NCBI RefSeq assembly: GCF_015711605.1
Contig: NZ_JABTEZ010000001.1
Location: 2,508,001 to 2,572,000 of the forward strand
Direction: 5' to 3'
DNA: 64,000 bases
From: Planomonospora sp. ID67723
Lineage (GTDB): Bacteria > Actinomycetota > Actinomycetes > Streptosporangiales > Streptosporangiaceae
In this document: in pieces, positions 443 to 35,991 of the stretch
Layout: every line of letters starts with the position of its first letter
Position numbering within the stretch: position 1 is the stretch's first letter
Notes under the pieces: generated by a model
What the model saw: only the letters and a program-made list of their open reading frames with translations
Told to the model about the DNA's origin: nothing
Databases searched by the model: none
Program-made: the position numbers and the translations under genes

Positions 443-2098
<1,656 letters not shown>

Positions 2099-2122
2099 GG
2101 ACGGAACCGCGGAGCAGGACGG

Positions 2123-2146: not shown

Positions 2147-2268
2147 TCCGGAGGGCGGACGCCCGCGGTGAGACGGGAGGGCGATCGGACCGGGCGCTTG
2201 GGTACGGTGGGGCGTTCCCGGTGCTCCGGCCGGGAATGATCACGAGCGGTCGATCGGTTGGAGGGGAC

Positions 2269-3084: not shown

Positions 3085-3108
3085 CCGGCGCCGGGCGATC
3101 GGCGCCGG
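3085..3108. terminator. Convergent terminator between rpiR and the ABC-2 permease
   Basis: The arms 3085-3092 and 3101-3108 (CCGGCGCC / GGCGCCGG) form an 8-bp perfect stem with an 8-nt loop. It lies in the 43-bp gap between convergent genes and could serve both strands. Confidence 0.55.
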
Positions 3109-3127
3109 CCGGGCGGCGCGGGACGGG

Positions 3128-3877: not shown

Positions 3878-3907
3878 GGGGGGACTCCTCGTGAGGGTGG
3901 GGAGAGA

Positions 3908-4867: not shown

Positions 4868-4951
4868 TTTATCTCCGTGTGTCGGGGGATGTCGAGCATG
4901 AACCCTCCCCCTGCGGGAAGGGCAAGTGGTTTTCCGGACGGCGGGCCGCGG

Positions 4952-5482
4952 CTACGGCAGCTCGCCGCGCCTGACCCGTTCGAGGGCGTCGCCGATCCAG
5001 TTCCGCTGGGCCTCCAGCTGAGCCGCGTTGAGACGGAGAATCTCGTCGATGTGCCGGGGGGCTCCGTGGGCGCGCTTGGCTTCGATGGCCCGTCCGAGCA
5101 TCCCGATCGCGGCCTTCAGCTGCGCGGACCTGGCCTCCATCGCGACGACCAGGTCGGCGGGGGAGAGGCGGTCCATGAAGGTCAGCGCGACCTGGAAGGG
5201 GTCCACGATGGGTTTGATCTCCCACCAGTGGTTCATCAACCGCACCATGAACTCGGCCCGGCCGGCCTCGGTGATCTCGTAGAGCGTCTTGCCGCCTCTC
5301 CCCTCCTCCACGCGGTGCAGGAGTCCTTCGTCCGCCATCTTGCCCAGGCCGTGGTAGATCGAGCCGTAGGCCACGTTGGCCCATCCGTCGGCCGCCCACA
5401 TCTCCAGGCGGCGCCGTACCTCGTATCCGTGCAGGGGACCGTCGAGGAGCACACCGAGAAGGAGAACACGCGTAGAGGACAT
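4952..5482 (-). CDS. PadR-family transcriptional regulator
   Basis: This 176-aa protein has the PadR winged-helix N terminus (LLLGVLLDGPLHGYEVRRRL) and the wing region (VAYGSIYHGLGKMADEGLL), followed by the GKTLYEITEAGR segment and a C-terminal helical dimerisation domain of the Vir type. I chose ATG 5482 because homology begins a few residues after it and because a promoter fits a transcript starting exactly there. The longer TTG 5518 reading would place its start inside the -35 box. PadR proteins usually repress their own gene and an adjacent exporter until a drug binds, which matches the downstream ATPase and permease. Confidence 0.9.
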   Translation of the reverse strand: MSSTRVLLLGVLLDGPLHGYEVRRRLEMWAADGWANVAYGSIYHGLGKMADEGLLHRVEEGRGGKTLYEITEAGRAEFMVRLMNHWWEIKPIVDPFQVALTFMDRLSPADLVVAMEARSAQLKAAIGMLGRAIEAKRAHGAPRHIDEILRLNAAQLEAQRNWIGDALERVRRGELP

Positions 5483-5489
5483 ATTCAAG

Positions 5490-5518
5490 TTTTTATTCAA
5501 ATTTGCGTACCATGTCAA
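5490..5518 (-). promoter_or_regulatory. padR promoter, apparently giving a leaderless mRNA
   Basis: Read on the minus strand, a perfect TTGACA (5518-5513) is followed by a 17-nt spacer and TAAAAA (5495-5490). The start codon ATG begins at 5482, 7 nt after the -10 box, where transcription should start. No ribosome binding site is present before the ATG. Two direct copies of TTGAAT (5500-5495 and 5488-5483), 12 bp apart in an A/T-rich island, overlap the -10 box and are a candidate PadR operator. Confidence 0.55.
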
Positions 5519-5601
5519 TCATGTGAGAGATCAGGCGTGACGACGGCGGCGCCCCGCTCGGTTTCGTTCGTGAGGCGGAGGGCGGGTGGGAGCCGCTGAC
5601 C

Positions 5602-5850
5602 GTGTTCGGCTATCCGCCCGGTGGGCGGTGCGCGGAGGAGGAGGCGCCGGAGGAGATCCACCGGTCCGGGCTGGAGATGCCGATGAGGCCCTGGTGGTTC
5701 CGTCAGGACGGGGAGCGGTACCGGTGCGTGATCCCGGAGGCCGCCCCCGGCGAGGCCAGGGTCCGGCCGGATGACCGCCGTTACCCGTACGACGTCTACG
5801 CGCTCACCCCGGAGCGCCCCGGACCGGAGGTCTTCCGGCCGGGGCAATAG
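5602..5850 (+). CDS. Small hypothetical protein, start uncertain
   Basis: An 82-aa reading frame from GTG 5602 ends 10 bp before the next gene. It is rich in W, P, E and R and has no membrane segment or domain I recognise. Oddly, the frame stays open and protein-like for 24 more codons upstream (to 5530), reading IRRDDGGAPLGFVREAEGGW, but this stretch contains no ATG, GTG or TTG. Either the true start is a rare ATC at 5530, the start codon has been lost, or the GTG at 5602 is used. It faces away from padR and lies before the SDR gene. Function unknown. Confidence 0.45.
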   Translation: MFGYPPGGRCAEEEAPEEIHRSGLEMPMRPWWFRQDGERYRCVIPEAAPGEARVRPDDRRYPYDVYALTPERPGPEVFRPGQ

Positions 5851-6640: not shown

Positions 6641-7921
6641 GTGTTCGACGAGATGTGGGGTGCCATCGAGCACCTCGGACGCGACGACCGGACCCGGGGC
6701 TACCTGCGCGACGCCTGGTCGCCCGCCGACCTGGAGCTGCGTGCGTGGTTCCGGCAGGAGGCCGCCCGGCGCGGCCTCGCCGTGCGCGAGGACCGCAACG
6801 GCAACCTGTGGGCCTGGTGGGGCGACCCGTCGGACCGCCCGGGGGTGGTCACCGGCAGTCACCTCGACTCGGTGCGGCAGGGCGGCGCCTTCGACGGCCC
6901 CCTCGGGATCGTGTCGGCCTTCGCCGCCCTCGACGCGCTCGCCGCGAAGGGCTTCGAGCCCGCCAGGCCGCTGGGGATCGCCTGCTTCACCGATGAGGAG
7001 GGCGCCAGGTTCGGCGTCCCGTGCACGGGCTCCCGGCTGCTCACCGGGGCGCTCGATCCGGACCGCGCCCGCGGCCTGACCGACGACGAGGGCGACTCCA
7101 TGGCCGAGGTGCTCCGCCGGGCCGGACGCGACCCCGGCGCGCTCGGCCGGGACGACGAGACCCTCGGGCACGTCGGCGTCTTCGTGGAGCTCCACGTCGA
7201 GCAGGGCCGGGGGCTCGTCCACGCGGGTGCCCCGGTCGGCGTGGCGAGCACGATCTGGCCGCACGGCCGCTGGCGGTTCGACTTCCGCGGCCAGGCCAAC
7301 CACGCGGGCACCACCCGCCTGCAGGACCGCGACGATCCCATGCTGCCCTTCGCCCGGACCGTGCTGCACGCCCGCGAGCTGGCCGAGCGCGGGGGCGTGG
7401 TGGCCACCTTCGGCAGGCTCCGCGTCTCACCCGGCAACGCCAACGCCGTTCCCGGCCTGGTCAGCGCCTGGCTCGACGCCCGAGGCGGTGACGAGACCGC
7501 GGTCCGGACCCTGGTCGCCGAGCTGACCGCGTTCTCCGGCGCGGAGGTGGGCAACGAGTCCTGGACCCCGGCCGTCGACTTCGACGCCGTCCTGCGCGAC
7601 CGGCTTGCCCTGGTCGCCGCGGAGGCGGTCGCCCGCCGTACGGCGCCCCCGGACGCGGCGGACGGGCGCGGGAGGCCGCCCCGGAGTGCTCGGGACGCGG
7701 CCGGCGGGGCGGCGGGAGCGGTGGCACCGGTGCCGGTGCTGCCGACCGGCGCCGGGCACGACGCCGGAATCCTCGCAGCGGCAGGGGTTCCCGGCGCGAT
7801 GGTGTTCGTCCGCAATCCAACGGGCATCTCTCACTCTCCGGAAGAACATGCGGAGGCGTCCGACTGCCACCTGGGAGTGGCCGCCCTCGCCGCCATTTTG
7901 GAGGACCTGTGCCAGAGCTGA
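6641..7921 (+). CDS. M20-family amidohydrolase (allantoate/N-carbamoyl amino acid hydrolase type), probable N-formylglutamate step
   Basis: This 426-aa metallohydrolase has the binuclear-metal pattern of the allantoate amidohydrolase branch: GSHLDSV (H74), GAFDGPLG, DEEGARFG, ELHVEQG and a late GISHSPEEH. It overlaps hutF by 13 bp and is transcribed with hutF and hutI. HutF produces N-formyl-glutamate, and no hutG-type deformylase is in the window, so I infer that this enzyme removes the formyl group to give glutamate and formate. A true allantoate role is possible but has no local support. An Ala/Gly/Pro-rich insert of about 40 residues (near 335-375) is unusual. GTG 6641 suits a leaderless start; ATG 6653 is the alternative. 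Confidence 0.85.
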   Translation: MFDEMWGAIEHLGRDDRTRGYLRDAWSPADLELRAWFRQEAARRGLAVREDRNGNLWAWWGDPSDRPGVVTGSHLDSVRQGGAFDGPLGIVSAFAALDALAAKGFEPARPLGIACFTDEEGARFGVPCTGSRLLTGALDPDRARGLTDDEGDSMAEVLRRAGRDPGALGRDDETLGHVGVFVELHVEQGRGLVHAGAPVGVASTIWPHGRWRFDFRGQANHAGTTRLQDRDDPMLPFARTVLHARELAERGGVVATFGRLRVSPGNANAVPGLVSAWLDARGGDETAVRTLVAELTAFSGAEVGNESWTPAVDFDAVLRDRLALVAAEAVARRTAPPDAADGRGRPPRSARDAAGGAAGAVAPVPVLPTGAGHDAGILAAAGVPGAMVFVRNPTGISHSPEEHAEASDCHLGVAALAAILEDLCQS

Positions 7922-9327: not shown

Positions 9328-10476
9328 ATGAGCACGCTGTTCGACCGGATCGGCCTGCTGTACACCGGGGACCCCGGGCGGGAGGAGATCGAGCACGCCG
9401 CCCTGGTCGTCGAGGACGGCCGGGTGGTGTGGACCGGCCCGTCCGGGGACGACCCGGGCGCGGACGAGCGGGTGGACGTCGACGGCCGCTGTGTGATCCC
9501 CGGGTTCGTGGACAGCCACGCCCACCTGGTCTTCGCCGGTGACCGCACCGCGGAGTTCACCGCGCGCATGTCGGGGGAGCGCTACACCGCCGGGGGCATC
9601 CGCACCACGGTCGCGGCGACCCGCGCGGCCAGCGACGCCCTCCTCGCGGCGCGGACGGCGGCCCTGGTCGCCGAGATGCTCGCCCAGGGCACGACCACGG
9701 TCGAGATCAAGAGCGGGTACGGCCTCACGGTGGCAGACGAGCGGCGCTCCCTGGAGATCGCCCGGGGTTTCACCGAGGAGACGACCTATCTCGGCGCGCA
9801 CGTCGTCCCCCCGGACGCCCCCTCCGCCGACGACTACGTCCGCACGGTCACCGGGGAGATGCTCCGCTCCTGCGCGCCGTACGCCAGGTGGGTGGACGTC
9901 TTCTGCGAGCGCGGCGCGTTCGACGCCGACCAGACCAGGGAGATCCTGTCCGCCGGGATCAAGGCCGGCCTGCTGCCGCGGGTCCATGCCAACCAGCTCG
10001 GCCACGGGCCCGGAGTGCAGCTCGCCGCCGAACTGGGCGCCGCCTCCGCCGACCACTGCACCCACCTCACCGAGGCCGACGTCGAGGCGCTCTCCTCGGC
10101 CGGGGTGGTGGCGACCCTGCTGCCGGGTGCGGAGTTCTCCACCCGCTCGCCGTACCCGGACGCCCGCCGGCTGCTGGAGGCGGGGGTGACCGTCGCGCTG
10201 GCCACCGACTGCAACCCCGGCTCCTCGTTCACCTCGTCCATGCCGTTCTGCCTGGCGCTGGCCGTAAGGGAGATGGGCATGACACCGCTGGAGGCGATCA
10301 GGGCCGCCACCCGGGGCGGGGCCTGGGCGCTGCGCCGCACGGACGTCGGCACGCTCCGGCCGGGCTCCCGGGGCGACCTGGTCATCCTGGAGGCTCCGTC
10401 CTACGTCCACCTGGCCTACCGGCCCGGGGTACCCCTGGTGACGCAGGTGTGGAAGGAGGGCCGCCGCCTCGTCTGA
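9328..10476 (+). CDS. hutI: Imidazolonepropionase
   Basis: This 382-aa amidohydrolase opens the imidazolone ring to give N-formimino-L-glutamate, the substrate of HutF. The metal ligands are in [12 protein letters not shown] (near residues 61-72), VHANQLG and the late [18 protein letters not shown] is a family signature. It starts at ATG 9328, 66 bp after hutF. A 20-codon frame (9258-9320) whose ATG overlaps the hutF stop fills the gap and might couple translation, but it is not likely a real protein. The length is normal for the family. Confidence 0.96.
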
Positions 10477-10569
10477 GGCGGATTCCGCCCGGTCGACTGA
10501 TTCCGCCGTCGCCGGAGGCATCCTCCTTGAGGAGGAAAACGAAACCGTTCTGCGGGCGTAGTTCTTTAG

Positions 10570-10595
10570 GGAATCTTTGCCCTGGCCCGGGCGTT
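10570..10595 (+). promoter_or_regulatory. SigR-type (ECF) promoter of the group 2 sigma gene
   Basis: GGAAT at 10570-10574 and GTT at 10593-10595 are separated by exactly 18 nt, which is the SigR/SigH consensus of actinobacteria (GGAAT-N18-GTT). The predicted start is about 75-80 nt before the ATG at 10681. In Streptomyces the hrdD sigma gene is a known SigR target, which fits this arrangement. Confidence 0.6.
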
Positions 10596-10680
10596 GATTG
10601 GGCAAGCGACGTGTCCGTGCGCGCGGGGCCTTGGGCGAGCGGGCGGGACGTCATAAGCAGGCGGAACGAGGTGCCATCGA

Positions 10681-11619
10681 ATGGCAAGGCCGACGGGGAA
10701 TCGCACGCAGGAGCAGCATGTCTCGGACCGGGACCTGCTCGGGACCTACCTGGCGGAGATCGGGCGGGTCCCCCTGCTGACCGCGGAGGAGGAGGTCGAG
10801 CTCGCGAAGCGGATCGAGGCCGGCCTCTTCGCGGAGCAGTTGCTGGACGGCGGGCTGACGGAGCCGCGGATCGCGGACGCCGCAGACGAGGAGCTTGAAC
10901 GACTCGCTATTTCCGGACAAAGGGCCAAGGACGAATTCATCCAGGCCAATCTACGTCTTGTGGTGGCGGTCGCGCGCAAATACTCCGGGCGGGGAATGCC
11001 GCTCATCGACCTGGTCCAGGAGGGGAACCTGGGACTGGTGCGCGCGGTGGAGAAATTCGACTACCGGCGCGGTTACAAGTTCTCCACCTATGCCACGTGG
11101 TGGATCCGCCAGTCCGTGGGGCGCGCGATCCACGAGCAGGCCCGGCCGGTCCGGCTGCCCACCCACGCCGGAGAGCAGATGACCCGGCTGATGCGGGTCC
11201 GCCGGGACATGCTGGCCGAGTTCGACGTCGAGCCGACCGACGCCGACCTGGCGGCGGTGCTGGAGCTGCCGATCGAGCGGGTCCGCGAGCTGCGCCGCTG
11301 GGCCTCCGACCCGGTCTCCCTCCAGCTCGGTGTGGGCGACGAGGACGAGACCGAGCTCGGTGACATGATCGCCGACGAGACGTGGGCCGACCCCGAGCAG
11401 CAGGCCATGGACATCCTGGAGCGCGAGCGCCTGGAGCAGTGGCTGACCGGCCTGGAGGGGCAGACCCGGGAGATGCTCCGCTGGCGCTACGGCCTGATGG
11501 ACGGCCGCGAGCACACGCTCACCGAGGTCGGGGAGCGCTACGGCATCGGCCGCGACCGCGCCCGCAGGATCGAGCGCGACGCCCTGGCCCGGCTGCGCAA
11601 GATGGCCACGGCCGCCTGA
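10681..11619 (+). CDS. Group 2 sigma-70 factor, HrdD-like
   Basis: This 312-aa sigma factor has region 1.2 (DLLGTYLAEIGRVPLLTAEEE), region 2 with the core-binding and -10 recognition helices (NLRLVVAVARKYSGRGMPLIDLVQ and the FSTYATWWIRQ segment), regions 3.0-3.1, and region 4 with the HTH (TLTEVGERYGIGRDRARRIE). It lacks the long acidic N terminus of the primary sigma factor, so it is group 2 (HrdA/HrdD class). The usual RRIERDAL end of region 4.2 is intact. The promoter upstream suggests induction by thiol-oxidative stress. It stands alone, with a terminator directly behind it. Confidence 0.92.
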   Translation: MARPTGNRTQEQHVSDRDLLGTYLAEIGRVPLLTAEEEVELAKRIEAGLFAEQLLDGGLTEPRIADAADEELERLAISGQRAKDEFIQANLRLVVAVARKYSGRGMPLIDLVQEGNLGLVRAVEKFDYRRGYKFSTYATWWIRQSVGRAIHEQARPVRLPTHAGEQMTRLMRVRRDMLAEFDVEPTDADLAAVLELPIERVRELRRWASDPVSLQLGVGDEDETELGDMIADETWADPEQQAMDILERERLEQWLTGLEGQTREMLRWRYGLMDGREHTLTEVGERYGIGRDRARRIERDALARLRKMATAA

Positions 11620-16003: not shown

Positions 16004-18982
16004 GTGACGACGGGACCTACCGATAGCGAGCACGCATCGGTGCGCGACCGCGGCAAGCGGCCTGCCGCCCGATTCGGTTTGCGCAACTGGCGTGTGCGGT
16101 CGCGCCTTACAGCACTGATCCTGGTGCCGACCGCGGTGGGCGTCGTGCTCGCCGGAACGCGTGTGGTGGCCTCCATCGACAGCGTCGCGGTGTACCAGCG
16201 CACGGCGTCCGCGGCGGAGTACTCCGGGCACCTGCGCGATCTCGCGCAGGCCATGGGACTGGAACGGGACAGGAGCACCTGGGCGGCTTTCCAGAGCACG
16301 AACAAGAGCCTGGAGACCAGCGCGAACGCCCAGCGCAAGACGGTCGACGAGCTCGTGAAGCAGGTCCGGCTGGACCTGCAGGCGATCGACGACTCCTACG
16401 GTCCGCGAGCGGTCAAGGCCGCCAGGGACGCCGGATACCAGCTCGACAGCCTGAACAAGAAGCGCCAGCTGCCCGGTACGGCCCGTGCCGAGAGCTACGA
16501 CGACCTGGTCAACCCGCTGCTGCAGCTCCACGAGGAGCTCACGCTGGTCAGCGACGACTCGGAGATCATCGGAAACACCCGCGGTCTCAGCGCGCTGGCC
16601 TACGCCAAGGAGGAGATCTCCAAGCAGCGGACCCGCCTGCTGGCCGGGTACTACGCGCCCACGCTGGTCAACGAGCAGGGGATCGAGGAGTTCATCGCCT
16701 CCCGGTCCCGGCTGCAGGAGCGTCTGACCGAGTTCGCCATCGAGGCGGGCGCCAGCAACGGTCAGCGGCTCAGCACCGCCCTCGTCGACGAGCGGGTGCA
16801 CCGCTCCGAGCTGACCAAGTCCAAGGCGATCGCGCTCGCCAGGGACACGCACTCCAGCGGCCGCCTGCTGACCGACTTCAACGAGGTCAAGCAGTGGTTC
16901 AACGACAACACCGTGGTCCTCGAGCGGATCAAGAAGGTCGAGACCGAGGTCGCGACCGACGTGGTCACCCGGGCCCGTGAGCTGGAGGACACCGAGCAGC
17001 GCAACGCGATCATCGCGGCGGGCCTGATCCTGGCCCTGCTGCTGCTGGTCCTCGGCCTCACCGTCATCATCGCCCGCTCGATGGTCCTGCCGCTGCGCCG
17101 CCTGCGCGTCGAGGCGCTGGACGTCGCGGGGTTCAAGCTTCCCGAGGTGGTGCGCCAGCTCCGGGTCTCCGGGGACACCCGGACGCCCGAGGTCGCGCCC
17201 ATCTCGGTGGACAGCCGGGACGAGATCGGGGAGGTCGCCAAGGCCTTCGACGAGGTCCACCGGCAGGCCGTACGGCTCGCGGCCGAGGAGTCCGAGCTCC
17301 GCTCCAACATCAGCGCGATGTTCGTCAACCTCTCCCGGCGTACCCAGACCCTGGTGGAGCGGCAGATCTCGCTCATCGACGGTCTGGAGAAGGGCGAGCA
17401 GGACGGCGGGCGCCTGGCCGACCTGTTCAAGCTCGACCACCTGGCCACCCGCATGCGCCGAAACTCCGAGAACCTCCTGGTCCTCGCAGGGCACGAGCCG
17501 ACCCGCAGGCGCAGCCAGCCGGCCAAGCTCGTCGACGTCGTGCGCGCCTCGCTGTCGGAGGTCGAAGACTACGAGCGGGTCCAGGTCAAGGTGCACCGCG
17601 CGATCTCGGTCGCCGGAAGCGCCGCCAACGACATCGTCCACCTGGTGGCGGAGCTGGTGGAGAACGCCATCCAGTTCTCCCCCCGGGCCAGTCAGGTCGT
17701 CGTCTCCAGCAGCATGATCGAGGGCGGCGGCGCGCTGCTCGCGGTCAGCGACGCGGGCATCGGCATGACGGGCGAGGAACTGCTCGAGACCAACCGGCGC
17801 CTGGCCGACCCGCCCGTCGTGGACGTGTCCGTGTCGCGGCGGATGGGGCTGTTCGTGGTCGGCCGCCTGGCTCTGCGCCACGGCATCCGGGTCCAGCTCC
17901 GTCCGCAGGAGGCCGGCGGCCTCATCGCCATGGTCCTCTTCCCGCCGGAGCTCATCGTCGCGGCCGCCCAGCAGGTCCCGAACCCGTCGTGGGGGGTCGA
18001 GCCGCCCGCCTCGCAGAACTCCTTCGGCCAGGGTTCCTTCGCCGACGCCTCTCTCGGACAGAGTGGTTCCTTCGGCCAGGGTTCCTTCGCCGATGCGTCC
18101 TTCGGCCAGAGCTCCTTCAGCCAGAGTTCCTTCAGCCAGAGCTCGGTGCCGCCGGCGCCCTCCTTCGGCTCGATCCCCGCCGGCCACCCGATCCCGGACC
18201 AGCGGCAGCCGCTCCCCGCGGCGCCGCTCGGCGCGCCCGCCCCGCTCGGCGAGGCGCCGGCTCTTCCCAAGCGCCAGGCCGGGGGACTGGGGGGACTGAA
18301 CGGCGCCGGCGGCATGGGCGCCTCCGTGGACGGCCCCGGCAGCTCCTTCTCAGCCTGGGGAGAGGCATCCCACGACGACCCCGCCACCGCCTCGATGCCC
18401 GCGGTCGGCGTCTCCCCGCTCGAACCCGAGCAGGAGGAGTTCCTGCCGATCTTCGCCTCCGTCGAGTCGGCCTGGTTCCGCCGGGCGGAGAGCGTCGAGG
18501 AGCTGGAGGACCTCGTCGAGGACTCCGGCTGGGAGGACGAGCCGGCCGCCGCCGAGCCGGTCGCCGAGGCGGCCGAGGCTCAGGCCGAGGAGCCCGCCCC
18601 CGTGGCGGGCGTCTCGGCCCCCGCGCCGGTCGAGGAGGCGCGCCCGGCTCCGCTCAGGGAGCCGGTGCCGGCCAGGGCGAAGACGCAGGTCCGCGAGCCG
18701 GAGAACTGGCGGACCCCGGCCGACGCCGGCTGGCAGGCCGCTCAGGCGGCCAGCGACCCCAGCCTCGGCGGCATCACCGCCGCAGGCCTGCCCAAGCGAA
18801 CCCCCAAGGCCAACCTGGTGCCCGGCGCCGCTTCCAGCGCGCCGGTGACGCCGATGCCGCCCATCTCCCCGGAGCGGGTGCGTAACCGGTTGTCGAGCTT
18901 CCAGCAGGGCGTGCGGCGGGGCCGCGCGGAACTATATGAGGACACCGCCAGGAACATGGCGGAAAAGGAGGAGGGCCAGTGA
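16004..18982 (+). CDS. cvnA: Conservon 1 sensor histidine kinase-like protein CvnA
   Basis: This 992-aa membrane sensor has a short cytoplasmic N terminus ending in LRNWRVRSRL and TM1 near residues 33-55. An extracytoplasmic domain of about 280 residues, of the nitrate/nitrite-sensing (NIT) type, runs to TM2 near 336-360. A HAMP-like linker and a GHKL ATPase domain follow: N-box ELVENAIQFSP near 549, DAGIGM near 582, GLFVVGRL near 615. The LDHLATRMRRNSENLLVLAG segment near 476 takes the place of an H-box. A long Ser/Pro/Ala tail contains SFGQGSF-type repeats (672-712), the conserved EEFLPIFASVES block and the RNRLSSFQQG end. GTG 16004 is weakly supported. Its stop overlaps cvnB (GTGA). It lies directly after the ammonium-sensing operon. 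Confidence 0.92.
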   Translation: MTTGPTDSEHASVRDRGKRPAARFGLRNWRVRSRLTALILVPTAVGVVLAGTRVVASIDSVAVYQRTASAAEYSGHLRDLAQAMGLERDRSTWAAFQSTNKSLETSANAQRKTVDELVKQVRLDLQAIDDSYGPRAVKAARDAGYQLDSLNKKRQLPGTARAESYDDLVNPLLQLHEELTLVSDDSEIIGNTRGLSALAYAKEEISKQRTRLLAGYYAPTLVNEQGIEEFIASRSRLQERLTEFAIEAGASNGQRLSTALVDERVHRSELTKSKAIALARDTHSSGRLLTDFNEVKQWFNDNTVVLERIKKVETEVATDVVTRARELEDTEQRNAIIAAGLILALLLLVLGLTVIIARSMVLPLRRLRVEALDVAGFKLPEVVRQLRVSGDTRTPEVAPISVDSRDEIGEVAKAFDEVHRQAVRLAAEESELRSNISAMFVNLSRRTQTLVERQISLIDGLEKGEQDGGRLADLFKLDHLATRMRRNSENLLVLAGHEPTRRRSQPAKLVDVVRASLSEVEDYERVQVKVHRAISVAGSAANDIVHLVAELVENAIQFSPRASQVVVSSSMIEGGGALLAVSDAGIGMTGEELLETNRRLADPPVVDVSVSRRMGLFVVGRLALRHGIRVQLRPQEAGGLIAMVLFPPELIVAAAQQVPNPSWGVEPPASQNSFGQGSFADASLGQSGSFGQGSFADASFGQSSFSQSSFSQSSVPPAPSFGSIPAGHPIPDQRQPLPAAPLGAPAPLGEAPALPKRQAGGLGGLNGAGGMGASVDGPGSSFSAWGEASHDDPATASMPAVGVSPLEPEQEEFLPIFASVESAWFRRAESVEELEDLVEDSGWEDEPAAAEPVAEAAEAQAEEPAPVAGVSAPAPVEEARPAPLREPVPARAKTQVREPENWRTPADAGWQAAQAASDPSLGGITAAGLPKRTPKANLVPGAASSAPVTPMPPISPERVRNRLSSFQQGVRRGRAELYEDTARNMAEKEEGQ

Positions 18983-19401
18983 CTACTCTGAGCCATGAGG
19001 CCCGCAGGTTCGACTGGCTGATCACCGAGTTCGTCCGCGGCACGCCCGGTGTCGCGCACGCGGTGGTCGTGTCGGCCGACGGGCTGCGGATCGCCAGCTC
19101 CGAGGGGTTCCCCGACGACCGCGCCGACCAGCTCGCCGCCGTCGCGGCGGGGCTGCTCAGCCTGACCGTCGGCGCGTCCCGCGTGTTCGAGGGCGGTGCC
19201 GTCACCCAGACGGTGGTCGAGATGGAGCGCGGCCTGCTGCTGGTCATGGCGATCAGCGACGGCTCCGTGCTCGCCGTACTGGCCTCTCCCGAGTGCGACA
19301 TGGGCCTGGTGGCCTACCAGATGACCCTGCTCGTGGACCGGGCGGGCCAGGTGCTCACCCCGGCGCTCCGGGCCGAGCTGCAGTCCTCCCGGGGGCGATG
19401 A
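18979..19401 (+). CDS. cvnB: Conservon 1 roadblock/LC7 protein CvnB
   Basis: This 140-aa cytoplasmic roadblock/LC7-fold protein starts FDWLITEFVRGTPGVAHAVVVSADGL, the family hallmark, and ends with CDMGLVAYQMTLLVDRAGQVLTPALR. The family includes MglB-like regulators of small GTPases, so it probably acts on the CvnD GTPase from this conservon. GTG 18979 overlaps the cvnA stop by 4 bp, a sign of translational coupling. Confidence 0.93.
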   Translation: MTTLSHEARRFDWLITEFVRGTPGVAHAVVVSADGLRIASSEGFPDDRADQLAAVAAGLLSLTVGASRVFEGGAVTQTVVEMERGLLLVMAISDGSVLAVLASPECDMGLVAYQMTLLVDRAGQVLTPALRAELQSSRGR

Positions 19402-27575: not shown

Positions 27576-30428
27576 GTGAGTTCGGTGAGTACAGACAGAA
27601 CCCGGGACGCGGGCAGCGGACTCCGCCTGCGCAACTGGCGGGTGCGTTCCCGGCTGGTCGCGCTCATCCTGATCCCGACCGCCGCCGCGGTGCTGCTCGG
27701 CGGCGTCCAGGTCGTCGCGTCGATGAGCGCCGCCGCCGACTACCAGCGGGTCAACGACCTGGCCCGGCTCTCGGACCACATCGGCGCCCTCACCCACGAG
27801 CTGGCCGAGGAACGTGACCGCACCGCCTGGTTCATCGCCCTGGGCCGCCCGGAACGCGGCGTGAAGGGGGTGCGCGACCAGATGGACGCGGTGGACTCCG
27901 TCTCCACCCGCGTCCGGGACGGCGGCGTCCTGCTCGGTGACGCGGCGGGGGGCCGCACCGGTGACGAGATCCGGGCCGCGCTGGCCCGGCTGGAGGCCCT
28001 GGCGCCGTTGCGCGACCAGGCGCTGGAGGGGAAGCTGCTGCCCGACGCCGCCGTCGACGCCTACACCCTCGTGATCGCCGACCTCCTGTCCCTCCACGAC
28101 GAGCTCGGCAAGGGCAGCTCCGACGACCTGCTGTTCGGCCAGGCCCTCACCCTGGACGCCCTCGCCCGGGCCAAGGAGAACCTCTCCCTCCAGCGGGCCC
28201 TGCTCTCGGTGGTACTGGTCACGGGGCGCTTCGAGCAGGAGCAGATGGAGAAGTTCCTCGGCGCGCTCTCCTCCGAGCAGAACGAGCGCCGGGCCTTCGC
28301 GGCGGAGGCGGGCACCGCCGAACGGCGCTTCTTCGACGAGACCGTCAACGGGCTCACCGCCGACCGGGCCGACTTCCTGCGGGAGCTCGTCCTGCTGCGC
28401 GCCTCCTCCGGAGCATCCCTCAAGGGACTGGACCTGGCCCAGAAGGACGACGCCCGGGAATGGTACGAGGCGGTGTCGGTGACGATCGACCGGATGCGCG
28501 CCGTCGAACAGCGGCACGCCGAGGGGATCGTCATCCGCAGCCAGGAGCTCGGCGACGCCGAGCAGAACCGCGCCCTGCTGGTCGCCGGATCGGTGGCGGG
28601 GCTGCTGCTGGCCGTCCTGCTGATCACCACCGGTGTCGCACGCTCGCTGGTCCGGCCGCTGCGGCGGCTGCGCAGGGAGGCGCTGGAGGTGGCCGGGGAC
28701 CGGTTGCCCGCCTACGTCCAGCGGGTGCGGGAGTCGGGTGACAGCGAGCTCGCCACCGAGGTGCCGCCGATCGGGATCCTCTCCCGCGACGAGATCGGCG
28801 AGGTGGCCCGGGCGTTCGACGAGGTCCACCGCGAGGCCGTACGGCTGGCGGGAGACGAGGCCAGGCTGCGCAACACGGTCAACGCGATGTTCGTCAACCT
28901 CTCCCGCCGGAGCCAGACGCTGGTGGAGCGCCAGCTCACCCTGGTGGAGCGGCTGGAGCGCGGCGAGCGCGACGACAACCGCCTGGCCGACCTGTTCAAG
29001 CTGGACCACCTGGCCACCCGCATGCGCCGCAACAGCGAGAACCTGCTCGTCCTCGCCGGGCAGGAGGTGGCGCGGCGCTGGCGGCAGCCGGTCGAGGTGA
29101 TGGACATCGTCCGGGCCGCCCTGTCGGAGGTGGAGAACTACGACCGGGTGGTCACCCGGATCCAGTCGGAGGCGGCCGTCGCGGGACCGGCGGTGAGCGA
29201 CGTGGTCCACCTGCTCGCCGAACTGGTGGAGAACGCCGTGGCGTTCTCTCCGGGGGAGAGCAAGGTCGTGGTCTCCAGCAGCCGGATCGACGGCGGCGGA
29301 GTGATGATCTCGGTGACCGACCAGGGCATCGGGATGACCCCCGAGGAGCTCGCCGAGGTCAACGCGCGGCTGACCTCCCCCCAGGCCGCCGACGCCTCCG
29401 TGGCCCGCCGGATGGGCCTGTTCGTGGTCGGCCGCCTGGCGCTCAAGCACGGCATCCGGGTCCAGCTCCGCCCCCAGGACTCCGGCCTGACCGCGATGGT
29501 CCTGCTCCCCGAGTCCCTCCTCGCCCCCCTGCCCGGCCCGGCCGTCCCCACCGCTCCCGCCGCCCCCGGATCCGTGTTCGGCGCGGCGCCGGGCTCCCCG
29601 TTCGCGAGCGGGCCGCCCTTCCGGGAGGCGCCGGCCGCGGTCCCCCCCGCCGCGCAGGCCGTGCCCTCCCAGACGAGGCCGCCCGGTGCGACCGGTCCCA
29701 GCGTGTGGGACCCGGCGGCCCGTGCCGGGACCCGGAGCGGAGACCGCCTCCCTCCGCCCCCCGGTCCGCTCGACCGTTCCACGCCGGCTCCCCGGGACGG
29801 GGCGGGGCCGTTCGACCGTCCCCCCGCTCCCTACGGGGAGTCCGGGCCGCTCGGCCGTTCCGCCGCCGGTCCCGGCGAGGAGCTCGGGCCGTTCGACCGC
29901 TTCATGACGAGCTCCCGCGAGGTGTCCCGCCCGCCGGAGCGCTTCCTGACCTCCGGTGAGTCGGCCGAGACCGGACCGCTGCCCCGGGTGGAGACCTCGG
30001 CGCTGGACTCCGGAGGCGAGTACCTGCCGATCTTCGCCTCGGTCGAGTCCGGCTGGTTCCGTACGGTCGACCGCGCTGCGGACGAGGAGCAGGTCCCACC
30101 CGGAGACGCCGCCCCGGCGGCGTCCGCGCCCCCGGCCGGGGACACGTGGTCGTCCCCGGCGGACAGCGGCTGGCAGGCGGCCAGGGCCGCGAGCGACCCC
30201 GCCTACGGGGGCCTGACCTCCTCCGGCCTGCCCCGGCGCACCCCCAAGGCCAACCTGGTGCCGGGCTCGGTGACTCCCGCGAGCCCGGCCGGCCCCGTGC
30301 CGCAGGCGCAGGTCCGGCCGCCGCTGCCCGGGCAGCCGATCTCGGCCGATCGGGTGCGCAGCCGGTTGTCGAGTTTCCAGCAGGGTGTGCGCCGGGCCCG
30401 CAACGAGCTCCCGAACCGGGAGAGCTGA
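27576..30428 (+). CDS. cvnA: Conservon 2 sensor kinase-like protein CvnA (in reduced conservon)
   Basis: This 950-aa protein has the same design as the other CvnA copies. It begins LRLRNWRVRSRLVALI, with TM1 near 25-47, a NIT-type outer domain, TM2 near 334-358 and a HAMP-like linker. MFVNLSRRSQTLVERQ lies near 436, LDHLATRMRRNSENLLVLAG near 476, N-box ELVENAVAFSP near 550 and DQGIGM near 584. The Pro-rich tail contains EYLPIFASVESGWF near 815 and the conserved RLSSFQQGVRRARNE end. It is followed 3 bp later by a cvnC gene only: neither cvnB nor cvnD is present. GTG 27576 was chosen by analogy with the other copies. Confidence 0.9.
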   Translation: MSSVSTDRTRDAGSGLRLRNWRVRSRLVALILIPTAAAVLLGGVQVVASMSAAADYQRVNDLARLSDHIGALTHELAEERDRTAWFIALGRPERGVKGVRDQMDAVDSVSTRVRDGGVLLGDAAGGRTGDEIRAALARLEALAPLRDQALEGKLLPDAAVDAYTLVIADLLSLHDELGKGSSDDLLFGQALTLDALARAKENLSLQRALLSVVLVTGRFEQEQMEKFLGALSSEQNERRAFAAEAGTAERRFFDETVNGLTADRADFLRELVLLRASSGASLKGLDLAQKDDAREWYEAVSVTIDRMRAVEQRHAEGIVIRSQELGDAEQNRALLVAGSVAGLLLAVLLITTGVARSLVRPLRRLRREALEVAGDRLPAYVQRVRESGDSELATEVPPIGILSRDEIGEVARAFDEVHREAVRLAGDEARLRNTVNAMFVNLSRRSQTLVERQLTLVERLERGERDDNRLADLFKLDHLATRMRRNSENLLVLAGQEVARRWRQPVEVMDIVRAALSEVENYDRVVTRIQSEAAVAGPAVSDVVHLLAELVENAVAFSPGESKVVVSSSRIDGGGVMISVTDQGIGMTPEELAEVNARLTSPQAADASVARRMGLFVVGRLALKHGIRVQLRPQDSGLTAMVLLPESLLAPLPGPAVPTAPAAPGSVFGAAPGSPFASGPPFREAPAAVPPAAQAVPSQTRPPGATGPSVWDPAARAGTRSGDRLPPPPGPLDRSTPAPRDGAGPFDRPPAPYGESGPLGRSAAGPGEELGPFDRFMTSSREVSRPPERFLTSGESAETGPLPRVETSALDSGGEYLPIFASVESGWFRTVDRAADEEQVPPGDAAPAASAPPAGDTWSSPADSGWQAARAASDPAYGGLTSSGLPRRTPKANLVPGSVTPASPAGPVPQAQVRPPLPGQPISADRVRSRLSSFQQGVRRARNELPNRES

Positions 30429-30431
30429 GAC

Positions 30432-30971
30432 ATGGCAGGCTCCTACTGGGACGATCCGCGAGGCGGTGCCGCAGGTGCCGCCGGTCCCGGCGGCGACATG
30501 CCCGCCGGTCCGCCGGGCTACGGCCCTCCCACGGGTCCGCCGGGCTACGTTCCTGCCGCCGGTCCACCGGGGTACGGCCCGGCGTCCGGGTACGGAGGAC
30601 CGCAATCACCCGGGTACGGAGGGCCGCAGGAGGAAGAGGAGAGCTCGCTGGTCCGGATGTACGCCGTCACCGGCGGCAGGACCGCCCCGAGCAGGCAACT
30701 GGCCATGGAGGCACTGGTCTCCTCGGCGACCTCCGGCGGCCTCGGCATGTCCTTCACCCGTGAGTACCGCGCGATCAGCGAGCTGTGCCGCCAGGTCCGC
30801 TCGGTCGCCGAGGTCTCCGCGCTCCTCGGCGTCCCGCTCGGCGTCGCCCGGGTCCTGATCTCCGACATGGAGGCCGAGGGCCTGGTCCGCGTCTACCACC
30901 CTCAGGTCCGCGAGAACGGCCCCGACCTCGGTCTCCTCGAACGCGTCCTCAGCGGCCTGCGCCGCCTGTGA
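30432..30971 (+). CDS. cvnC: Conservon 2 DUF742 protein CvnC with Gly/Pro/Tyr-rich N terminus
   Basis: This 179-aa protein carries the standard DUF742 domain (VRMYAVTGGRTAP ... RSVAEVSALLGVPLGVARVL) and ends ERVLSGLRRL like the other three. It differs by a ~65-residue N-terminal extension of PPGYGP-type repeats. Downstream there is no cvnD: after the stop the sequence runs 152 bp to an unrelated gene. Its last codons use CGC, GTC, AGC, GGC and CTG where the complete conservons use AGG, GTG, AGT, GGA and CTT. It probably works with CvnA alone or with CvnB/CvnD supplied from another conservon. Confidence 0.88.
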   Translation: MAGSYWDDPRGGAAGAAGPGGDMPAGPPGYGPPTGPPGYVPAAGPPGYGPASGYGGPQSPGYGGPQEEEESSLVRMYAVTGGRTAPSRQLAMEALVSSATSGGLGMSFTREYRAISELCRQVRSVAEVSALLGVPLGVARVLISDMEAEGLVRVYHPQVRENGPDLGLLERVLSGLRRL

Positions 30972-31122: not shown

Positions 31123-33819
31123 GTGACCGCCTGGGACGAGGTCCGCGACCTCATCGACGCCGAACACGTCGAGAAGCTCGCCGAACGGCTGAAGAGACTC
31201 GACGACGCCGAGCGCAGGCGGATCGCCGGGGAGCTGCCGGGTCATCTGAGGACGGTCCTGGAACGGGCCAGACGGTCCGACCGGGAAAGGCGGGAGGCTC
31301 ACCGGGAGGCGACGGGGTGGCTGATGCCCTCCCCGACCCGAAGGGACCTCCTGGGGGGCCGGGCCCTGCCGTTGCGACTGGCCGGGGCGGGCACGATGAC
31401 CCCGAGCGCGCTGACGGCCTGGCTGAACCGGCGCGAGTTCGCCACCTCCTGGTTCCTGGAGCACGACGTCGACGTGCTGGCACGGATGATCGCCTCGCGC
31501 CCCGCCGACGTCCGGGCCGAGATCGCGGTACGGCTGACGCATGCGGTCCGCAACGAGGCCGACCCCGGCGCGGTGCTGGCGCTGGAGCTGCTCAGGTGCA
31601 CCGGGACCGAGCCCCCGGTGCACGACCCGCTGCTTCTCGCCTGGGTGCGGCAGTACATCCAGGCCTCTCCGCAGACGCAGGTCGAGCGGATCGCCGAGGA
31701 CCCGCTGCTGGACGCGCTGATCCCGAGGATCTTCGAGGTCGAGGGGGTGGGCCGGCTCCTGCGCGACGACTGGTTCTGGCCGGGCATGCTGCCCGAGCTG
31801 GCCGCCCGGGGCGCGGTGCGGCGCGAGACCCTGCTGGGGGGCTGCGCGAGCCGGTTCCTGCGCGGAGGTTCCGGCCCCGACCTGCGATTCTTCGTCCGGT
31901 TGCACGACGCGCTCGACCCGGCCCCGGCCGAGACCGCCCCCTGGGTCGTCGACTACCTGCGGCTGCTGCCCTCGGCCCCGGGCCCGGTCGCCACGCTGGC
32001 GCTGGCCCAGCTCCGGGGCCGCGACCTGGACGCCGATGACGTTGCCGAGGCCGCAGCGGCGCTGCTGTGCCGGCCGGAGGTCAAGCTGGTGCGGACGGGG
32101 CTTTCCTGGTTGGAGGAGACGTTGCGCGGAGGGACCGCCGATGCCCCGCCTCCGGTCTCGGCGCTGGCCACGGCCCTGTCCCATCCGTCGCCGGACATCC
32201 GGGAACGTGCCGCGCGGCTGGCCCTCCGGTACGGCGACCGCCTCGCCCCCCAAGACCGGGAGACCCTCGCGGAGGCCTCGGATCTCCTGCCGCCCCGCCC
32301 CGGCGTGCCCCTCCCCGAGGGCCGGGGCGGAGCGTCCGGCCGGAACACGGCCCCACCGGCGTCCGGCCCGCCGCCGCTGCCTGCACCCGTCCCGGCCGGG
32401 CCGCTGCCCGCGCCGCCGGACACGCCCGAAGCCCTGGTGACGGGAGACCTGGACGGCTGGCAGGCGTGCGAGCGGTGGCTGGCCGGTTTCGTCCGGCTGG
32501 CGGGAGAGAAACCGGAGGAACTCCGCGTCCTGCTGCCCCGGTGGCTGGACGGTGATCAGCCGCACCTGCACGGCACACAGGCCTGGACGTCGGCCGAGCC
32601 CTGGCTGACCACCACCGCCTGGGAGTTCGCCCACCCCCGGGACGAGCGCCGGAGCCTGTCCGAGGCGGGGATGCCCACGCTGGCTCCCGGGCGGCGCCGG
32701 CTTCCGAAGCCGGGTCAGGTGGCGCCGCCGCACATGTTCGTGCTGCGGAGGCTCGCCGAGATCCTCACCGCGCTGAAGGCCGGCGCCCTGCCCCCGCTCC
32801 TGCTGGCCACCCCGACCCGCGCCAACGGTCACCTCGACCCGGACGAGCTGGTCGCCAGGATCGAGGCGTGCGAGGCGGCGGGAGCCGAACCCCTCCCCGC
32901 CGACCTGCAACAGGCCCTGCTCCGGCTGCCCCGCGCCGTCGACCCCGCCGTCGCCGAGCGGGCCGGGCGGTTGCGCTCGGAGGCGGGCCGCACGGCCGCG
33001 CGCTGGATGGCCGCGGGCGGCCTGCCCGACCCGCTGGTCGAGGTGCGCTGGTCCTCACCGGAGCACGGGACCGGGCACTCCTCCGGAGACCGGGAGCCCC
33101 CGCGCGACGGGGCGCGGATGCGGCCGACGGCACGGGTGACGGCGGAACCCACCGGGCTGGCCCTGGTCGACGAGCTGCTGTCCGGGGAACCGCGCCCACG
33201 CGGCGGCATCCAGGACACCTGTGCCCTCCTGCCATGGTGGCCCGCCGTCCTGCCCTCCCACCGGGAGGTCGTCGCCGCCTACCAGATTTCGTACCTGCTC
33301 AACGAGTGGAACGGCCCGAGCGGCCACGCCTACGGTCCGGCCGTGCTCGTCGACCCGGACGCCGAGGGCCCGGCGGGGGAGGCGACGGGCCTGGCGCTGG
33401 CCCTCCTCCTGCTCCGGGGCGATCCCTCGCGGGGGATCACCGCGCTGCTGGGCCTGGCCGCCCGCGGGGATCTGCCCGCCGCGGAACTCGGCGACCACCT
33501 CGCCGAGCTGATCGAACACGCCGGGTTCGAGCCGCGCCCGCTGGTCGCCGCGCTGAGCGAGGCGGCCCGGCAGGGCGCGTACCGCGAGGTGTGGGCGGTC
33601 CTGACCCGCCTGCTCCGGGTCCTGATGCCCCGGCCGGGGGAACGCGCGAAGATCGCCCACATCGAGGCCGTCACGCTGGCCGCCGACGTCGCCGGGTGGA
33701 CCGCTGCCCGGGGCGAGCCCTCGACGGCCGCGCTGGTCGCCGGATACGCCGGGCAGAAGGGCGGCAGCAGGTTCCTCCAGGAGTGCCGCCGCCTCTGCGA
33801 CCTGCTTTCCCTGCCCTGA
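31123..33819 (+). CDS. Large helical-repeat protein of unknown function (DUF6493-like)
   Basis: This 898-aa cytoplasmic protein has no signal peptide or membrane helix. It is built of many short Leu/Ala/Arg-rich helices reminiscent of HEAT repeats (for example SALATALSHPSPDIRERAARLALRY). It has a Pro/Ala/Gly-rich linker near residues 400-440 and a second helical half. I recall similar long actinobacterial proteins grouped as DUF6493, but cannot confirm the assignment by eye. GTG 31123 fits the conserved-looking TAWDEVRDLIDAEHVEKL start; the frame is open further upstream without a better site. Neighbours do not suggest a role. Confidence 0.6.
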   Translation: MTAWDEVRDLIDAEHVEKLAERLKRLDDAERRRIAGELPGHLRTVLERARRSDRERREAHREATGWLMPSPTRRDLLGGRALPLRLAGAGTMTPSALTAWLNRREFATSWFLEHDVDVLARMIASRPADVRAEIAVRLTHAVRNEADPGAVLALELLRCTGTEPPVHDPLLLAWVRQYIQASPQTQVERIAEDPLLDALIPRIFEVEGVGRLLRDDWFWPGMLPELAARGAVRRETLLGGCASRFLRGGSGPDLRFFVRLHDALDPAPAETAPWVVDYLRLLPSAPGPVATLALAQLRGRDLDADDVAEAAAALLCRPEVKLVRTGLSWLEETLRGGTADAPPPVSALATALSHPSPDIRERAARLALRYGDRLAPQDRETLAEASDLLPPRPGVPLPEGRGGASGRNTAPPASGPPPLPAPVPAGPLPAPPDTPEALVTGDLDGWQACERWLAGFVRLAGEKPEELRVLLPRWLDGDQPHLHGTQAWTSAEPWLTTTAWEFAHPRDERRSLSEAGMPTLAPGRRRLPKPGQVAPPHMFVLRRLAEILTALKAGALPPLLLATPTRANGHLDPDELVARIEACEAAGAEPLPADLQQALLRLPRAVDPAVAERAGRLRSEAGRTAARWMAAGGLPDPLVEVRWSSPEHGTGHSSGDREPPRDGARMRPTARVTAEPTGLALVDELLSGEPRPRGGIQDTCALLPWWPAVLPSHREVVAAYQISYLLNEWNGPSGHAYGPAVLVDPDAEGPAGEATGLALALLLLRGDPSRGITALLGLAARGDLPAAELGDHLAELIEHAGFEPRPLVAALSEAARQGAYREVWAVLTRLLRVLMPRPGERAKIAHIEAVTLAADVAGWTAARGEPSTAALVAGYAGQKGGSRFLQECRRLCDLLSLP

Positions 33820-33845: not shown

Positions 33846-33907
33846 CTCACCGGAGCGCGGTCAACGACGGTCCCGTGAAGGAAACCGGCGGAGCGCGGCC
33901 CACGGCG

Positions 33908-34894
33908 TCATGCGGAGGCTGCCGCCTCGGGGGCCCGCGACCGGCTGAGCCACCACCGGGCGGCGACGAGCTCGGCGACGAGGGTCTCGGTGAGCAGGCG
34001 GACGCCGGGGTCGTCGTCGTGGAGGTAGCGGACGGCGGCCTCGGCGCCGGAGAGCTCGCCGCCCACGGTCAGGACGGCCGAACCCCGCTGCCGGATCCAG
34101 TCCATGGCCTGCTCGTCGTAGCGGGAGCCGGGGAAGACCAGGGCACGGTAGTCGAGGGTCTTGGTGAGGTAGACGTCGACGTGGGACCAGTCACCGGTCT
34201 CACAGGCGGTGGCGGCCCTGCGGGGGCCCTCGCGGAACATCAGGGCCGACTGCTCCGCGGAGGACAGGTGCTCGGCGGGGGCCACGGTGTAGACGCCGTG
34301 CGGGCCGTCGAGCAGGTCCGCCGCCTCCTGGAGCCACTGGCCGCGCCGGTCCAGCAGGTCGCCGGTGGCCTCCGCGGCGCGGCGCAGCAGCGCGGGCACG
34401 TCGGTGTCGGTGCCGGTGAGGCGGTTGCGCAGGACCATGAGCAGGGCGACCGTGTGCTGGAAGGTCCGGCAGGCGACGCCGCCGCGCTCCTCGCCGGCGA
34501 GCATCGGGACCACCAGGTCGGCGCCCTCGGCGATCGCGGAGTCCGGGCGGTTGGTCACGGCCGCCACGGGGGCCCGGCCGCGGTAACGGGCGACCGCGTC
34601 GAGGGTCTCGCGGCTGCCGCCGGTGGCGGAGACGGCGACGACGAGGGTGTCCGGGGTCGCCGGGTAGGAGGTCGCGGCGGAGGCGTACTCGGCGACCGCG
34701 TCGAACCCCGCCGCGCGCAGGCCGAGGGCGGCCACCCGGGAGGCGTAGCGGGAGCTGCCCATGCCGAGGAAGAGCACCCGCCGGATCCCGGACGGGACCC
34801 CCTCGAACGGGTCGGCGCCCTCCAGGGCGTCCGCCAGCCGGGTCAGCGCCTCCGGCTTGGACTCCAGGTCGGCGAGATACAGCTCGGGGTTCAC
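33908..34894 (-). CDS. SIS-domain protein (GlmS isomerase-domain-like), probable amino-sugar phosphate isomerase/deaminase
   Basis: This 328-aa protein has two SIS folds like the isomerase half of GlmS, without the glutaminase domain. VLFLGMGSSRYASRVAA (near 40-56) and VVAVSATGGSRETLDAV (near 90-106) are the sugar-phosphate binding loops of SIS 1; the second SIS spans about 190-320. GTG 34894 has a good AAGGAGA site 5 nt upstream. It is the second gene after a kinase-like gene (17-bp gap). I infer conversion of glucosamine-6-phosphate to fructose-6-phosphate as a likely job, but AgaS-like or purely regulatory roles remain possible. Confidence 0.75.
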   Translation of the reverse strand: MNPELYLADLESKPEALTRLADALEGADPFEGVPSGIRRVLFLGMGSSRYASRVAALGLRAAGFDAVAEYASAATSYPATPDTLVVAVSATGGSRETLDAVARYRGRAPVAAVTNRPDSAIAEGADLVVPMLAGEERGGVACRTFQHTVALLMVLRNRLTGTDTDVPALLRRAAEATGDLLDRRGQWLQEAADLLDGPHGVYTVAPAEHLSSAEQSALMFREGPRRAATACETGDWSHVDVYLTKTLDYRALVFPGSRYDEQAMDWIRQRGSAVLTVGGELSGAEAAVRYLHDDDPGVRLLTETLVAELVAARWWLSRSRAPEAAASA

Positions 34895-34911
34895 ACGTTC
34901 TCCTTGTGGGG

Positions 34912-35991
34912 TCAGCGGTACCAGGAGCGCAGCACGCCCATCGGAGCGTAGCGCCAGCGGGGCAGGTGCCTGGCGGCGTAGATGAGTTCGCGGCACTCCT
35001 GCTCGACGGCGAAGGCCCGCAGCAGCCCGCCGTGGAGCAGGTGGGAGTGCCCGCGATCGAGCAGGCGCCCTCTGTAGGCGTCCTCCAGGGAGCGGGTCGC
35101 CTCCGCCGCCCACTCCCCGATCACGGCGGAGTCGGCGCCCCGGCGTCTGACCGCGACCTGGCCGGCGTGTTCCAGGCTGGTGGAGAGCTGGGCGAGGTCG
35201 CGGGCGGCGGGCTGGAAGAGGTCGGTGTCGGAGACCGTCGGGTTCCCGTCGAAGTCGATCACCGCGTACCCGTCCCGCCAGCGGAGGATCTGGCCCACGT
35301 GCAGGTCGCCGTGGATGCGGATCAGCGGGGTCGCGCCGTGGTCCTGGAGGGTGCCGAAGGCGCTCGTCAGGAGGCTCGCGCGGGAGGCCAGCCATTCGCC
35401 GTCCTCGCCGTCGGTCAGCTCCAGGGCCTCGCGGAGCGCGCTCTCGGCGCGGGCGAACCAGGCGGGGCGGGGTCGCGAGAGCCGTACCGGGTCGGTGAAG
35501 ACCGCGGAGGGGGTGGCCAGGGCGACGTGCAGGTCGGCGGCGAGCACGCCCAGGTCGCCGGTGAAGGCCGTACGGCCGGCGGCGGCCTCGTCCACGCACC
35601 ACTCCCAGCCGTCGCGGGCGTCCGGCAGGTAGGCGGTCACCAGGGCGAGGAGCTCCCCGTCACGGGACAGGGCCGCGTACGGCTCCGCCGTGGCGGTGAA
35701 GCCGGCCGAGACCAGATGGGCGAACATCTCGGGAGCCGGATGGGGGAGCGGGGCGGGAGGGGTGAGCCACTTGACGACGAGGGTCTCGCCGACGATCACG
35801 GAGTGGTTGGTCTGGTCGCTGTCGAAGCCGCGTTCGGCCGCCCCGGGCGGCACCTCGGGGAGCGGACGGAAGAGCCGGACGGCGTACGGAGGGGGGACGG
35901 CCGAGGTCAGGGCGCCGACGAGTGCGGCGGTCCGCCCGTCGCCGGCGCGGGGCACCGTGGAGAGCAGTTCCCATGCTGAACGTGGGTTCAA
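34912..35991 (-). CDS. Maltokinase-like sugar kinase, candidate glucosamine kinase
   Basis: This protein of about 359 aa has the aminoglycoside-phosphotransferase-like kinase fold. Its catalytic loop is HGDLHVGQIL (near residues 227-236) and the metal-binding VIDFDGNP lies near 245. The N terminus resembles the cap domain of actinobacterial maltokinases. A family of actinobacterial glucosamine kinases has this same fold, and pairing with a SIS-domain isomerase fits glucosamine use better than maltose use. The start is unclear: TTG 35991 (used here) or GTG 35955; neither has a strong ribosome binding site. The gene is divergent from potD across an inverted repeat. Confidence 0.65.
   Translation of the reverse strand: MNPRSAWELLSTVPRAGDGRTAALVGALTSAVPPPYAVRLFRPLPEVPPGAAERGFDSDQTNHSVIVGETLVVKWLTPPAPLPHPAPEMFAHLVSAGFTATAEPYAALSRDGELLALVTAYLPDARDGWEWCVDEAAAGRTAFTGDLGVLAADLHVALATPSAVFTDPVRLSRPRPAWFARAESALREALELTDGEDGEWLASRASLLTSAFGTLQDHGATPLIRIHGDLHVGQILRWRDGYAVIDFDGNPTVSDTDLFQPAARDLAQLSTSLEHAGQVAVRRRGADSAVIGEWAAEATRSLEDAYRGRLLDRGHSHLLHGGLLRAFAVEQECRELIYAARHLPRWRYAPMGVLRSWYR

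Follow-up and report, generated by a model that had tools for sequence, protein, structure and literature searches.

A cvnA–cvnC pair with no roadblock or GTPase gene of its own in Planomonospora sp. ID67723: a candidate two-part remnant of a conservon

The cvnA2–cvnC2 locus of Planomonospora sp. ID67723 encodes the sensor kinase-like and DUF742 components of a conservon but no roadblock protein (CvnB) and no Ras-like GTPase (CvnD). We see an even chance that CvnA2–CvnC2 is a conserved, selected two-part remnant of an A-B-C-D conservon that signals without a dedicated GTPase.

Gene layout and ancestry of the pair

In the window, by which we mean the whole 64,000-nucleotide stretch that was analyzed, cvnA2 occupies positions 27576–30428 (+) and encodes a sensor histidine kinase-like protein of 950 aa, as judged from Pfam, box alignment, and dN/dS. 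cvnC2, at 30432–30971 (+), encodes a DUF742 winged-helix protein of 179 aa, as judged from Pfam and a structure model. The TGA stop of cvnA2 (30426–30428) and the ATG of cvnC2, which begins at 30432, are separated by 3 bp. These ORF coordinates, together with Pfam, which returned no roadblock or GTPase match between or after the two genes, confirm the initial annotation's description of a cvnA followed after 3 bp by a cvnC and by neither partner gene. The following gene (31123–33819, +) had been called unrelated, and it does have only a weak match to DUF7824 in Pfam. CvnB, a roadblock/LC7 protein, is absent from the operon in all its orthologs as well, and CvnD is missing together with the cvnD start site, which has been erased. 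A candidate fifth gene of the operon (33875–34951, +) was rejected, as it is actually an antisense frame of a minus-strand SIS-domain gene. The pair lies in an array flanked by amtB-glnB-glnD and ffh-rpsP, and the window also contains three complete conservons (conservons 1, 3, and 4) at about 16.0–20.4, 43.5–47.9, and 55.5–60.3 kb, assigned with Pfam for one set. In conservon 1, the Shine–Dalgarno sequence of the overlapping cvnB also codes for KEEGQ, the acidic end of CvnA (18960–18985).

The junction between cvnA2 and cvnC2 (30416–30434, +) reads CCGGGAGAGCTGA-GAC-ATG, and ortholog comparison places the ribosome-binding site of cvnC within the 3′ end of cvnA. In every one of the seven orthologs, cvnC begins 2–3 bases past the stop of cvnA, and most of them share a similar purine-rich cvnC ribosome-binding site. 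In six of the seven, cvnA ends in GGGAGAGCTGA or a close variant, with Streptosporangium amethystogenes more divergent. A translationally coupled two-gene unit that is retained under selection is part of our best explanation, which, taken as a whole, could equally well prove right or wrong.

Orthologous A-C pairs without B or D are present in P. venezuelensis (L026), Planobispora takensis (L031), Streptosporangium subroseum (L027), S. canum (L028), S. amethystogenes (L032), and another genus of the family (G045, L060); in Planobispora siamensis (L029) and S. minutum (L030), the contig stops within cvnA. The seven complete A-C pairs form one clade in the CvnA tree, with support of 100/100. Two more distantly related genomes, G005 (locus L061) and G004 (locus L062), carry a full A-B-C-D conservon in exactly the slot of cvnA2–cvnC2, between divergent betaine ABC transporter genes upstream and SIS/glucosamine-kinase-like genes after it, and in our trees their CvnA and CvnC are among the nearest relatives of the A-C clade. 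Slot synteny and trees together trace the pair to a complete A-B-C-D operon, from which cvnA2–cvnC2 arose by deletion. The initial annotation had considered a simple deletion in one strain. The full conservons of G005 and G004 uphold the deletion but not its restriction to a single strain: the A-C form is counted in at least seven species with the junction visible, from Planomonospora, Planobispora, Streptosporangium, and the genus of G045. In the same evenly balanced explanation, B and D would have been lost once, before Planomonospora, Planobispora, and Streptosporangium split, and the A-C pair retained. In the full conservon of G004, an insertion of about 1.4 kb (L062, contig C77, 7190–8576) separates cvnB from cvnC. 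Two apparent rearrangements were set aside: the frames of 886–1080 aa over CvnC that suggested an A-C fusion in G004 and G045 are merely long stop-free frames in another register, and a cvnA that appeared split in four orthologs is an artifact that arose where a single frame gave two domain alignments.

Complete sets have the cvnD ribosome-binding site and GTG start, GAAAGGGTGCTCAGTGGACTTCGC, at the 3′ end of cvnC; at the corresponding site in cvnC2 (30936–30971, +), both are erased. The peptide LERVLSGLRRL is often kept in the A-C clade, with the cvnD signals erased through synonymous codons, GAACGCGTCCTCAGCGGC. A tblastn search found no remnant of B or D above chance. In one genome, G016 (L059, C7:340000–358000; 10455–11330, −), about 10 kb is lost between conservon 1 and cvnC2; all that is left of cvnA2 is its final part, now joined to the rear of conservon 1 and followed by an intact cvnC, giving the order A-B-C-D-C. 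This loss of most of cvnA2 is a later local deletion, and it indicates that the pair can be lost.

Constraint on CvnA2 and CvnC2

CvnA2 contains NIT (157 bits), HAMP, and HATPase_c domains by Pfam, as well as a DHp region, a disordered linker, and an LPxR tail; with its conserved histidine, it thus has the full set of conservon CvnA features. That histidine, His478 (codon 29007–29009, +), lies in LFKLDH at the conserved DHp position and, judging by its place in the sequence, would correspond to H183 of CvnA8. The N, G1, and G2 boxes of the ATP-binding region (29214–29456, +) are intact, and LFKLDH, ELVENA, DQGIGM, and MGLFVVGRL are all preserved in alignment. The LPxR motif of the tail, GLPRRTPKANLVPG (30225–30266, +), was found in seven of seven orthologs by alignment and motif scan, and the SSFQQG end of CvnA2 is conserved in the A-C clade along with it. 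Each of the seven orthologs, the most divergent at 65% identity, has open frames and intact catalytic boxes. The dN/dS of cvnA2 (Nei–Gojobori, one species pair per value) is 0.33 against P. venezuelensis, compared with 0.39, 0.33, and 0.46 for the three complete units, and 0.43 against G045, compared with 0.38–0.47. By segment, the kinase part and the tail motifs have values within or close to those spanned by the complete units. These values within the complete-unit range argue that cvnA2 is constrained as before.

CvnC2 matches DUF742 (PF05331) with 105.9 bits, as a conservon CvnC does, and ends in LERVLSGLRRL. Its dN/dS is 0.20 against P. venezuelensis (0.04–0.06 for other cvnC genes) and 0.55 against G045 (0.03–0.15 for the others). 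By this measure, cvnC2 is less constrained than other cvnC genes, yet not free (dN/dS <1). To locate the changes within the protein, we scored positions that are at least 97% identical among 37 complete CvnC proteins of this subfamily. In the helix-turn-helix core (residues 110–150; 30759–30881, +), 99% of invariant positions are kept in the A-C clade, with 2 of 176 cells changed; the N-terminal part has 6 of 112 changed and the last helix 10 of 88. In the post-wing loop (residues 151–165; 30882–30926, +), 16 of 24 cells are changed, and L159 and G162 are lost. This loop is invariant in all 37 complete relatives, with 0 of 6 loop cells changed in the full relatives L061 and L062, and it is also altered in L063 and L068, the two other A-C-only members of the subfamily. 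Its loss in A-C-only pairs fits a surface that once met B or D, and residues 151–165 are likely to be such a B/D-facing surface. The loop was rejected as a marker for all conservons: it varies among distant CvnC subfamilies, so the argument is confined to this one.

The initial annotation therefore stands in its overall reading of a conservon that is reduced but not dead. The ATP-binding boxes of the kinase are kept, as it had said, and so is the C terminus of CvnC; open frames, intact boxes, and a cvnA2 dN/dS like that of complete units all speak for a live pair. Its proposal that CvnC gained a PPGYGP-type extension is not borne out: no such gain came with the reduction, as similar Gly/Pro/Tyr-rich N termini are also present in CvnC proteins of the complete sets L061, conservon 4, and L072. 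Only the copy number of this N-terminal repeat is expanded in Planomonospora sp. ID67723.

An AlphaFold model of CvnC2 (pLDDT 78) and its structure matches are those of a winged-helix protein; the modeled domain of CvnC4 has a pLDDT of 82.5. For both CvnC models (30432–30971 and 59220–59675), the best structural matches are GATOR1/SEA chains of NPRL2 length, with Z of 9.1 and 9.4, where best Z values of 7–8 are common by chance and Foldseek E-values are weak (0.0036 at best). These matches cover about 70 residues with an rmsd of 2.0, ahead of MarR-type regulators (Z 6–7). NPRL2 is a member of a Rag GTPase regulator, which would fit a protein whose usual neighbors are the roadblock protein CvnB and the Ras-like GTPase CvnD. 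The resemblance of the models to NPRL2 is a lead, weak by itself, toward a possible link with Rag GTPase regulators. The helix-turn-helix segment of CvnC2 has a net charge of −1 and is neutral to acidic, a weak pointer against a DNA-binding surface that is not decisive.

Missing partners and other A-C pairs

The genome of Planomonospora sp. ID67723 was searched in an assembly of 8.3 Mb (nine contigs, 99.8% complete). It holds eight CvnC (DUF742) genes, seven roadblock genes, six of which are in conservons, and five CvnD-family GTPases, numbers that leave no spare B/D pair. A displaced cvnB–cvnD pair serving this unit from elsewhere, the objection that the initial annotation had foreseen, was not found genome-wide. 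The seventh roadblock gene (L067, C5:431048–431305, −) is solitary, lies far from the conservons, and resembles CvnB only distantly (23 bits with a CvnB profile); it is probably an orphan protein of the MglB type known in actinobacteria (PMC4316618).

Several further arrangements in this genus were observed. A second, unrelated A-C-only pair is present in the same genome (L064, G000:C1:1352000–1368000; cvnC 7040–7369, −; C1:1359039). Its junction is an overlapping ATGA, and it has orthologs in L070 and a related pair in L133. In P. venezuelensis, another A-C-only pair (L068, G001:C32:43000–59000) has a cvnA without the LPxR tail and a cvnC with the cvnD Shine–Dalgarno sequence and without the GTG. 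At L065 (G000:C1:1102000–1120000) and its ortholog L069, two convergent A-B-C sets, A-B-C> <D-C-B-A, have only one CvnD between them. Two Planomonospora species keep this layout, which is, as read from gene order, a natural shared-GTPase arrangement.

The search for other cvnA–cvnC pairs that had been proposed did yield more of them. In a small survey, a class-level draw of 17 CvnC-bearing genomes besides our own, 62 CvnC loci were confirmed: 56 are complete, 2 are A-B-C without D, and 4 are A-C only (L111, L129, L133, and L137), in two families. On a quick kinase-core tree, with the direction taken as loss, the A-C-only state requires seven changes, at least three of them forced by strongly supported branches. 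A further locus, L110 (G067:C572), was excluded because of its weak DUF742 match. By a regular-expression scan, an LPxR-type motif is found in the tails of complete units and is absent from the A-C-only L068, L111, and L137; it is retained in the cvnA2 clade, L063, L064/L070, and L133. Other layouts seen include a conservon with a second roadblock gene past cvnD, A-B-C-D-B (L094 in G075, 1020–5837, −), a D-B pair with no CvnC detected (G091:C7), and a cvnA frame of just 191 aa, covering the tail region, ahead of an intact B-C-D (L075, G059:C1, 6054–8177).

Signaling by the pair and its significance

Because the A-C contact is the only one that remains in an A-C pair, we favor a model in which CvnC2 reads CvnA2 directly, and we consider it just as apt to be correct as not. 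An extracytoplasmic signal would act on the NIT domain of CvnA2, and this input would alter autophosphorylation at His478. The winged-helix protein CvnC2, docked on the kinase, may then read the state of CvnA2 directly and, bound or released, would carry a presumed output without a dedicated roadblock/GTPase step. As later papers describe, CvnA and CvnD each bind to both CvnB and CvnC in two-hybrid experiments on Cvn9 (Komatsu et al. 2006, per PMC8510531 and PMC9739842); by analogy, CvnA2 and CvnC2 would most likely form the same A-C subcomplex. CvnA8 autophosphorylates on a conserved histidine (H183), and CvnB or CvnC has been suggested as the target (PMC13343842); we found no direct evidence of CvnA phosphorylating CvnC in any system. 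The LPxR tail, a version of which is present in complete units, has also been lost from L068, L111, and L137, and this counts in favor of a two-part system. Several findings run counter to it. The LPxR tail and SSFQQG are still conserved in the A-C clade, which would be odd if B or D were their partner and the pair used neither. The constraint on cvnC2 is weaker than on other CvnC, with dN/dS reaching 0.55 (G045), and G016 has since lost most of cvnA2. Finally, conservons 1, 3, and 4, all within 30 kb, could supply B and D in trans.

Such borrowing, in which CvnA2–CvnC2 uses the CvnB and CvnD of conservon 1, 3, or 4 and serves as an extra sensor on a shared GTPase, is the chief competing explanation, possible though rather unlikely. 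The initial annotation had offered both readings, borrowing from the neighbors and a simpler two-part sensor. The conserved LPxR tail keeps this option alive, as does the proximity of the three complete conservons. Among the other A-C pairs, that of L111 adjoins a full conservon and that of L129 an A-B-C set, the convergent L065 conservons have one D serving two A-B-C sets, and cross-talk among conservons has been proposed (PMC8510531). However, two other A-C-only lineages share with the A-C clade the loss of the CvnC loop that is invariant in complete sets, which would be expected of a CvnC that has ceased to contact B or D, and no conservon lies within the roughly 7–16 kb covered around each of L064, L133, L137, and L068.

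Slow decay, with the pair functionless or disappearing, is improbable. The relaxed constraint on cvnC2 relative to complete sets and the deletion in G016 would suit it, but the open frames and intact boxes of the seven orthologs, a cvnA2 dN/dS equal to that of complete units, the nearly unchanged helix-turn-helix positions, and the conserved A-C junction all argue against it. It is highly improbable that a new operon gene such as 31123–33819 replaced B and D: this gene does lie downstream on the same strand, but no copy of it was found at this slot in relatives, the next conserved genes (SIS protein and glucosamine-kinase-like) are on the opposite strand, inspection revealed no extra gene common to the neighborhoods of other A-C-only pairs, and comparison of orthologous loci largely refutes the idea.

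As a reduced conservon, CvnA2–CvnC2 is homologous to the actinobacterial G protein systems Cvn9, Cvn8, and Cvn1 of Streptomyces coelicolor. It shares with them the CvnA domains and LPxR tail, a DUF742 CvnC, and the A-then-C order, and it descends from a full set in its slot. It differs in having no CvnB or CvnD, in its altered post-wing loop, and in the erasure of the cvnD Shine–Dalgarno sequence and start within cvnC, with cvnC coupled directly to cvnA. GTPase-less conservons, in which an orphan MglB is flanked by conservon genes (PMC4316618), likewise reflect gene loss and are patchy across actinobacteria, but they keep A-B-C, whereas cvnA2–cvnC2 has lost B too. As a sensor kinase with a small winged-helix protein, possibly leading from kinase to effector, the pair is also like an orphan histidine kinase or two-component system. 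CvnC, however, lacks both a receiver domain and a known phosphoacceptor, and Pfam identified no receiver domain in CvnC2 or in gene 31123–33819; the likeness is at most functional and does not amount to membership.

Among the papers searched, we came across none that describes A-C-only pairs. A published synteny rule, with cvnB beside cvnA and cvnC two genes away, would skip such pairs, which may thus have been missed. The passage of the signal within a conservon and the phosphorylation target of CvnA were stated to be unknown in 2026, with CvnB and CvnC named as candidates (PMC13343842). We tentatively suggest, at less than even likelihood, that CvnA–CvnC may be the minimal conservon core: signaling from the kinase to CvnC would need no GTPase, this state would have arisen several times as B and D were lost, and CvnC rather than CvnB would be the direct target of CvnA. 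A-C pairs and their full same-slot relatives offer a ready comparison for the target of CvnA. If CvnA2 acts on CvnC2, a direct target would be identified without B and D interfering, and residues 151–165 of CvnC are singled out as a likely contact for B or D.
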